In this document: one piece after another, positions 42,608 through 45,095 of the stretch | How positions within the stretch are numbered: the stretch's first letter is position 1 | How the letters are laid out: each line of letters begins with the position of its first letter | NCBI GenBank assembly: GCA_002717655.1 | Contig: PBAY01000039.1 | Coordinates: forward strand, 186,001 to 250,000 | Direction of reading: 5' to 3' | Source of the DNA: Phycisphaerae bacterium | GTDB taxonomy: Bacteria > Planctomycetota > Phycisphaerae > Phycisphaerales > SM1A02 | Length of the DNA: 64,000 nucleotides | The notes under the pieces: generated by a model | The model's input: the letters and a program-made list of their open reading frames with translations, nothing else | Database searches by the model: none | What the model was told of the DNA's origin: nothing | Made by a program: the position numbers and the translations under genes

Positions 42608-42718
42608 GCTGGCCAGCTTGCTCTTCCTTCCACAATTCCCAGAATGACCATTCGGCAGGCCTGACCAGACACCGAATTTCCGCTGTTTCTGAGACCGATA
42701 ACCTTCTTAGATGCATTA

Positions 42719-42732
42719 AAAACAGCTGTTTT
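42719..42732. repeat. 14-bp perfect palindrome
   Basis: AAAACAGCTGTTTT, perfect dyad symmetry, in an AT-rich patch about 45 bp upstream of the candidate RNA promoter. Possible operator. Confidence 0.4.
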
Positions 42733-42754
42733 CGAGTTCCGATAGTTTCAAAGC

Positions 42755-42782
42755 TAGACGTATCGCCAAGAGGCCTTACTAT
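42755..42782 (+). promoter_or_regulatory. Candidate promoter of the structured RNA
   Basis: TAGACG (42755-42760; four of six -35 positions), a 16-bp spacer and TACTAT (42777-42782). It predicts transcription start near 42790, just before the first hairpins. Moderate match only. Confidence 0.3.
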
Positions 42783-42867
42783 CGTTAAGGAATGGTGGTC
42801 CAGATCAAGGACTGGCATCGGAGTGGAGCGAGGGAACCAAATCCAGCATTCTGGAGGGGGGAACTTC

Positions 42868-42933
42868 GTGATCTGGCCCTCCACCAGATCTCGCCGAAGT
42901 CGACGATCCTGGATCAGCCCCATACGGGTATAG
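42868..42933 (+). CDS. Possible 21-residue leader peptide
   Basis: GTG at 42868 has a GGAGG-type site (42853-42861) about 6 nt upstream and reads 21 codons rich in Arg and Ser (VIWPSTRSRRSRR at the start) to a TAG inside the CATACGGGT arm region. If translated, ribosomes would open hairpin B and the pseudoknot. It may equally be chance within a structured RNA. Confidence 0.25.
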   Translation: MIWPSTRSRRSRRSWISPIRV

Positions 42934-43000
42934 GTGGATGGGCCGAAAGGCCCGTATTAAACCCGTATGCCATGCCGCTAGTCGGCATTACTTCCGAGCG

Positions 43001-43036
43001 TCGGTCGCGGCTTCAGGGCCGCGACCGAATTTTTTT
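43001..43036 (+). terminator. Strong Rho-independent terminator
   Basis: Perfect 11-bp stem TCGGTCGCGGC (43001-43011) with GCCGCGACCGA (43018-43028), loop TTCAGG, followed by A and seven T (43030-43036). The U-run follows only on the plus strand. It is 88 bp upstream of the nagB ATG and is the only clear intrinsic terminator found in the window. Confidence 0.9.
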
Positions 43037-43059
43037 GTCCACGGTCCTGGTTCCGAGGT

Positions 43060-43075
43060 TGATTCATGTGAATCA
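43060..43075. promoter_or_regulatory. 16-bp palindromic operator candidate upstream of nagB
   Basis: TGATTCATGTGAATCA: perfect 7-bp arms around TG, centred about 57 bp before the nagB ATG. The TT at 43059-43060 with GATT gives a -35-like TTGATT, so a bound protein could block the nagB promoter. Confidence 0.45.
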
Positions 43076-43124
43076 TCTCTGCGTTACCTTGGAAGTCATC
43101 AGGCGAAGGCAAAAGGTGAAATCG

Positions 43125-45095
43125 ATGCAAGAAAACAATGCCAGAGAAGCTGTTCCAATCGTTGCGCATGCAGAGCCCCGGGAAGTATCTCTGGCCGTGG
43201 CGGGAGAGATCGCCCGCACGATCAATGAGTGTGCAGAGGCGGGGCGCTCATGCGTTCTTGGATTGGCTACTGGTTCGACTCCACTGACGGTGTATGAAGA
43301 ACTGGTCAGGATGCATCGCGATGAAGGGTTGTCCTTTGCCAATGTGATCACCTTCAATCTTGATGAGTATTACCCGATGCATCCGGAGGAGCTGCAGAGT
43401 TACCACCGTTTCATGCATGAGAATCTGTTTGATCACATCGACATTGATCCATCCAATGTCAATATTCCCAATGGTCTGACGGCTGAAGATGATCTCAATC
43501 AGTATTGCCAGGACTATGAAGCAAGAATCAGGAAAGCAGGAGGTATCGACCTTCAGCTTCTGGGTATTGGACGTACTGGCCATGTCGGGTTCAACGAGCC
43601 AGGTTCGAGTCGTCTCAGCCGAACCCGTCTGATTACGCTGGATCGAACCACCCGACTCGATGCCGCCAGCGACTTCTTTGGCGAGCAGCATGTACCTCGC
43701 CGGGCGATCACGATGGGCGTGGGCACTATTCTTGATGCAAGACGCATCTGTCTTCTGGCCTTTGGCGAACGAAAGTCGGAGATCATTCGATGTGCCGTCG
43801 AGGAACCAATTACGGAATCCGTGGCGGCGTCATTCCTTCAGGAGCATCCCAACGCAACGTTCTATCTTGATGATGCAGCAGCAGCAGCACTGACGCGATT
43901 CCGCTGTCCATGGACGCTTGGCCCGATCGACTGGAATGTCGACAATATCCACGCTGCCACCATCTGGTTGGCTCAACAGACAGGTAAGCCGATCCTCAAG
44001 CTGACCGATGAGGACTACAACGAGCATTCGCTTCAGGATCTCGTCGCACAACATGGACCGGCGTATGACATCAACTTGAATGTCTTCCGCAGACTGCAGC
44101 GGACCATTACGGGATGGCCCGGGGGAAAGCCCGCGGGACGCAAGCGTGATGGAGATCTTTCCCGCGCCGGCGATGAGATCTTTCCGAAGACCATTCTTAT
44201 TTTCTCACCGCATCCTGATGACGATGTGATTTCGATGGGGGGCACGTTGCTGCGCCTGGTGGAGCAGGGGCATGAGGTCCATGTTGCCTATCAGACTTCG
44301 GGAAACATCGCGGTATTCGACGACGATGCCATCAGCGCAGTCGACTTCGTCCGTGACTTCTCAGCCATGTTTCAGGTCGATGAGAAGCGTGTGCAGGACA
44401 TCGACGACCATGTCGAGACGTTTCTCAGAAACAAGAAGCCAGGCCAGATCGACAGTGCGGAAGTGCAGGGGATCAAGACGCTCATTCGTCGGAATGAGGC
44501 GAGGACGGCGACACGGGCATGTGGCGTGAAAGGCGAGAACCTCCATTTTCTCGACATGCCTTTCTATGAAACGGGCCGCATCAGGAAATCACCGTTGACG
44601 TCTGCGGATCTCGACATCATCAAAGATCTGCTTCGGCGGTTGAAGCCACATCAGATCTATGCGGCAGGCGATCTGTCGGATCCGCATGGCACACATCGAA
44701 CCTGTCTTCAGGCCATATTCGACTCGGTCAACCAGCTTCAGGGCGAAGAATGGATGGAACCTCTTCAGGTCTGGCTGTATCGAGGCGCCTGGCAGGAATG
44801 GGAACCGGATCAAATCCAAATGGCGGTACCACTGAGCCCACAGGAACTTGAACGCAAGATCAACTCGATCTTCAAACATGAGTCTCAGAAGGACAAGGCG
44901 CTCTTCCCAGGTTCTGATGCCCGTGAGTTCTGGCAGCGGGCGGAAGATCGCAATCGGGCAACGGCCGAACTCTACAACCAGCTTGGTCTGGCGGAATATG
45001 AAGCGATCGAAGCATTTGTTCAGTGGACTCCAGCAGAAACCGGGCTTGGCAAGCAGATTGGTCAGAAGGCCTGCGATCAGACGACTCTAAAATGA
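43125..45095 (+). CDS. nagB: Glucosamine-6-phosphate deaminase fused to PIG-L deacetylase domain
   Basis: A 656-residue two-domain protein. Residues 1-320 are NagB, which converts glucosamine-6-phosphate to fructose-6-phosphate and ammonia: LGLATGSTPLTVYEELVRM, then VITFNLDEYYPM, and LLGIGRTGHVGFNEPGSS. Residues 355-656 form a PIG-L/LmbE-type zinc deacetylase domain with SPHPDDDVISMGGTL and DPHGTHRTC metal motifs. Such fusions are known in Bacteroidetes-type NagB; a deacetylating step on GlcNAc-6-phosphate is a natural guess, but unproven. ATG 43125 is preferred because conserved sequence begins there (AAGGTG ribosome-like site). In-frame codons upstream to 42792 cross the terminator. ppk1 follows 19 bp downstream. 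Confidence 0.93.
   Translation: MQENNAREAVPIVAHAEPREVSLAVAGEIARTINECAEAGRSCVLGLATGSTPLTVYEELVRMHRDEGLSFANVITFNLDEYYPMHPEELQSYHRFMHENLFDHIDIDPSNVNIPNGLTAEDDLNQYCQDYEARIRKAGGIDLQLLGIGRTGHVGFNEPGSSRLSRTRLITLDRTTRLDAASDFFGEQHVPRRAITMGVGTILDARRICLLAFGERKSEIIRCAVEEPITESVAASFLQEHPNATFYLDDAAAAALTRFRCPWTLGPIDWNVDNIHAATIWLAQQTGKPILKLTDEDYNEHSLQDLVAQHGPAYDINLNVFRRLQRTITGWPGGKPAGRKRDGDLSRAGDEIFPKTILIFSPHPDDDVISMGGTLLRLVEQGHEVHVAYQTSGNIAVFDDDAISAVDFVRDFSAMFQVDEKRVQDIDDHVETFLRNKKPGQIDSAEVQGIKTLIRRNEARTATRACGVKGENLHFLDMPFYETGRIRKSPLTSADLDIIKDLLRRLKPHQIYAAGDLSDPHGTHRTCLQAIFDSVNQLQGEEWMEPLQVWLYRGAWQEWEPDQIQMAVPLSPQELERKINSIFKHESQKDKALFPGSDAREFWQRAEDRNRATAELYNQLGLAEYEAIEAFVQWTPAETGLGKQIGQKACDQTTLK

Follow-up and report, generated by a model that had tools for sequence, protein, structure and literature searches.

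The motif CCUCC is complementary to Shine-Dalgarno sequences. RNAs that carry a C-rich anti-Shine-Dalgarno motif in a loop have been described in rhizobia, where they pair with mRNAs at the start of translation and thereby silence them (PMC10746234, PMC3927594). According to a review (PMC9029176), genomes outside the well-studied groups have no more than one or two annotated sRNA families each. For the Phycisphaerales, no paper on regulatory RNAs was found in the open-access literature, and no report of the RNA described here was found there either.

Herein, a locus was analyzed within a 64,000-nt stretch of the contig PBAY01000039.1 of a Phycisphaerae bacterium, referred to as the window. The genus was represented by six marine Phycisphaerales metagenome-assembled genomes, comprising the window's own genome (G000) and five others (G001 to G005), and the records with homologues are marine-type Phycisphaerales/Phycisphaerae assemblies. 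A gap of 517 bp (42608-43124) without a convincing gene lies between an Asparaginase_2 gene and nagB, as an earlier note on this DNA had stated. That note had also proposed a structured RNA not described before, about 250 nt long and equipped with a promoter and a terminator, and the proposal was borne out by homologues in relatives, by compensatory changes and by the absence of an Rfam match. A unit of promoter, RNA of about 248 nt and terminator (42736-43036) was found in five of the six genus genomes. We read it, with a probability of about 0.55, as a genus-confined, free structured RNA whose CCCUCCA loop acts in trans on target mRNAs. The comparison of sequences makes it highly probable that the unit is a free RNA gene. 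The anti-Shine-Dalgarno action, if the RNA gene is free, is proposed tentatively, with a little under an even chance. The features, all on the + strand, are as follows, with R1 denoting a covariance model built on the 5' domain.

42736..42749, +, conserved upstream element GTTCCGATAGTTTC, just 5' of the -35, identical in G000, G001 and G002
42755..42782, +, putative promoter, to which hexamers of relatives align (GAGGCCTTAGGAT in both G002 and G003)
42789..43036, +, predicted RNA of about 248 nt, its ends placed from the -10 and the terminator
42792..42922, +, conserved 5' domain, with R1 matches in five genus members and covariation
42828..42869, +, hairpin P4, with a CCAG/CTGG tip and GGAGGGGGGA (GGAGGG at 42853)
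42870..42890, +, hairpin P5, with a 7-bp stem and the 7-nt loop CCCTCCA at 42877-42883, anti-Shine-Dalgarno-like
42921..42969, +, variable hairpin CATACGGG ... CCCGTATG, sequence not conserved, place of a proposed switch
42972..42988, +, hairpin P6 (ATGCCG/CGGCAT), the last hairpin before the terminator, covarying
42990..43002, +, invariant ACTTCCGAGCGTC, identical in all five genomes, preceding the terminator
43001..43036, +, intrinsic terminator, a 12-pair stem at 43001-43028 followed by T7

The distribution of the RNA was determined by DNA search and by R1. By DNA search, the region is present in four of the other five genus genomes. When 181 genomes of the family and a 400-genome sample of the order were searched with R1, the family search returned the same five genus members at 87-136 bits, and the order sample gave only the three genus members that it included. 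No homologue outside the genus was found among these 181 and 400 genomes. Similarly, R1 never rose above 14.2 bits in the regions upstream of ppk in 18 other genomes. By these searches, the RNA gene is restricted to one genus of marine Phycisphaerales. The sixth member, G004, gave no match to the RNA and none to the orthologues of ppk and asparaginase, so that a loss of the RNA and an assembly gap both fit. A scan of named genomes with the terminator motif recovered the four known homologues; its extra hits, in an alphaproteobacterium and on a Burkholderiaceae contig, had no model match and were discarded. Two further candidates were rejected as chance: a 28-nt DNA match in G007, which falls inside an ABC transporter gene, at its 3' end, and a model hit in G140 of 22.4 bits, a chance-level score over 181 genomes, which lies antisense inside a phosphate-permease-like gene.

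The existence and shape of a structured RNA are well supported by the sequence comparison. The segment 42789-43036 folds at -112 kcal/mol, compared with -90.6 +/- 5.5 for dinucleotide shuffles (z = -3.9; 0 of 200 shuffles). The 5' domain consists of a long outer stem P1 (42796-42806 paired with 42905-42917), inner stems P2 and P3, and a junction carrying hairpins P4 and P5. Within this domain 93.3% of the alignment cells are paired, versus 34.8-50.7% when the partners are slid. Two-sided changes occur at 12 pairs, compared with 5.0 in shuffles that retain kinship (0 of 500 reach 12), counts that come from five sequences with structure and alignment taken from the same data. Since that alignment also yielded the structure, one covariation control favours the fold by construction. 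The P5 stem is 100% paired in the five genomes, with two-sided changes at two pairs. P6 covaries at three of its seven pairs while staying paired (A-U/G-C, C-G/U-A, G-C/C-G). The homologues and compensatory changes that the earlier note had looked to for support are thus present in four of the five other genus members, at the 12 pairs and at three more in P6. The constant stretches outside the stems are ACUUCCGAGCGUC, which precedes the terminator, and the P5 loop, which reads UCCUCCA in G003 and CCCUCCA in the four other genomes. In four relatives, the AGCGT within 42990..43002 may pair with the 5' end and so close the RNA; this pairing can form in four of the five genomes, G000 being the exception. 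No reading frame is conserved across the homologues. A coding explanation was rejected, as frames are not kept and a long frame running through to nagB occurs in G000 only.

The limits of the conservation follow the unit. In the five-genome alignment, identity climbs at about 42730, at the upstream element and promoter, peaks at 0.88 in the P5 hairpin and at 0.98 in the segment before the terminator, and is down to 0.2-0.3 beyond the terminator's T-run. This pattern would be expected for a self-contained RNA gene. The terminator with seven T had been noted before; all five genomes keep its stem, counted here at 12 pairs. The promoter-like sequence of the earlier note has a -35 TAGACG (42755-42760), a 16-nt spacer and a -10 TACTAT (42777-42782). 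A strict sigma-70 scan missed it, but similar hexamers stand at the same position in the aligned relatives: CTTGAAG or CTTGCCG, followed by TAGGAT as the -10 in G002, G003 and G005, with TACTAT in G000 and G001. We infer that the RNA is transcribed, with a start near 42789. The upstream element GTTCCGATAGTTTC is altered in G003 and G005 at the same aligned place. A search of the five genomes gave no more than two other hits, each with a single mismatch, so a box shared by a regulon was rejected; a regulator of the RNA may bind at this nearly unique 14-nt element. The palindrome TTGATTCATGTGAATCAT, at 43057-43076 between the terminator and nagB, resembles a repressor operator and is missing at the aligned position in the relatives.

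The gene order was compared among the five genomes. In G000, G003 and G005 the order is asparaginase, RNA, nagB, ppk. In G002 it is asparaginase, RNA, ppk, and in G001 a TPR gene facing away, RNA (C22:200450), ppk; the stretches fetched for these two genomes contain no nagB match. The RNA is found without nagB in both, which indicates that it is not dependent on nagB. The constant downstream block is ppk, on the same strand in all five genomes and directly next to the RNA in G001 and G002. In G000, nagB (43125-45095) encodes a glucosamine-6-phosphate deaminase domain fused to a PIG-L de-N-acetylase domain (PRK02122 family). Taken together, the comparison demonstrated that promoter position, fold and terminator are conserved, that conservation ends at the T-run and that the RNA is independent of nagB.

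Two finer claims of the earlier note concerned alternative pairings. The words on which they were built were all found in place (CCCTCC at 42877, GGAGGG at 42853, ATACGGG at 42922, CCCGTAT at 42951 and 42962). The two exclusive folds did not hold up, as the double partner of ATACGGG is missing in all four homologues. In G000, forcing the pairing with 42951 gives -101.2 versus -112.0 kcal/mol, 10.8 kcal/mol less stable, and 2% of shuffles hold a 7-mer with such a double partner. The pseudoknot between CCCTCC and GGAGGG stays a candidate: the GGAGGG partner is kept in four of the five genomes, where this pairing is possible, but in G001 the P4 tip and its G-run are lost and the loop CCCTCCA is unchanged.

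That the P5 loop is nearly invariant although its partner is lost in G001 favours a free RNA. In the mechanism we propose, the RNA of about 248 nt would be made from its own promoter and stopped at the intrinsic terminator. Hairpin P5 would hold out the CCCUCCA loop, which would pair in trans, without Hfq, with GGAGG-type ribosome-binding sites of candidate target mRNAs. The proposal is drawn from the complementarity of CCUCC to Shine-Dalgarno sequences and from the analogy with the rhizobial RNAs. Against it, the Shine-Dalgarno-like words GGAG, GAGG or AGGAG precede only 13 of 51 crudely called open reading frames, many of them spurious. Hfq was not detectable in the six genus genomes, and each has two CsrA genes, so an Hfq-independent route or an involvement of CsrA would be needed.

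The constant position of the RNA 5' of ppk on the same strand leaves room for a cis role. An unlikely explanation, and yet the one that survives best beside the free RNA, is a leader or attenuator of the downstream operon in which ppk, and not nagB, is the constant regulated gene and a signal overrides the terminator. The ppk linkage in five of five genomes is consistent with it, as are the gap of about 20 nt between nagB and ppk where nagB intervenes (G000, G003 and G005) and the lack of a ppk match in G004, which also lacks the RNA. However, the search for a conserved antiterminator gave none: the best pairing between the terminator arm and upstream RNA is at shuffle level in four of the five genomes and at 2% in G003. 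The sequence from the terminator to the gene is not conserved, and most other members of the family and order that were searched carry ppk without an adjoining model match. Somewhat more doubtful is a new structured RNA class tied to the ppk locus and acting other than by simple antisense pairing, for example as a protein-binding scaffold or as a cis sensor of phosphate or energy state that controls ppk.

A CsrA-sequestering RNA of the CsrB/RsmZ type is improbable. Such RNAs share with this one several GGA motifs and a host with CsrA; there are nine GGA here versus 5.2 expected, and all five genomes retain the GGA in AUCA[A/U]GGAC. However, this excess is weak and due in part to G-richness (4.6% of shuffles reach nine), few GGA are conserved in all five genomes, they lie outside the tips of repeated hairpins, and G004 has CsrA but no RNA match.

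In Rfam 15, no family matched the window at its gathering threshold, in agreement with the earlier note; sub-threshold hits (E<=10) were chance only, the best at 15.1 bits versus 150 required. A strongly diverged 6S RNA, or another housekeeping RNA, is very improbable. A free RNA of similar size would fit 6S, and RF00013 was not detected in the window's genome (0 matches at E<=0.001), but several relatives carry a recognisable 6S, and G001 holds both this RNA and a weak 6S match elsewhere. That match (C22:48717-48870, 29.3 bits) is below the cut-off. The 6S fold is a rod with a central bubble, unlike the branched fold found here. RNase P RNA (RF00010) was ruled out, as the genome's own lies at C46:8574-8980 (271 bits). 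Finally, there is scarcely any chance that the RNA is, as once suggested, a nagB leader that responds to an amino sugar: the RNA adjoins nagB in three of the five genomes, but the expected conserved linkage fails in the other two, G001 and G002, so that gene order largely refutes it, and the switch words ATACGGG and CCCGTAT are private to G000.

A free RNA acting in trans thus stays our preferred reading. In a genus without detectable Hfq, an RNA gene that is conserved and covaries offers a concrete test case for small RNA action. If the ppk linkage is functional, the RNA would be connected to polyphosphate metabolism.

Compared with known systems, this RNA forms a new family within a general kind that is already known. 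Terminator-type leaders, such as riboswitches and attenuators, are likewise folded RNAs that end in a terminator upstream of an operon; here, in contrast, there is no conserved antiterminator and the first downstream gene varies between genomes. The alpha-r14 / NfeR1 (SmelA075-type) RNAs of the Rhizobiales carry CCUCCUCCC in each of their three or four hairpins, whereas the RNA here has a single CCCUCCA loop in a branched 5' domain, not CCUCCUCCC in each of three hairpin loops. It is of twice their complexity or more, in a host without detectable Hfq, and homology is not claimed. Both are intergenic, both carry a C-rich anti-Shine-Dalgarno motif in an unpaired hairpin loop, and in both the loop stays constant while the stem varies.
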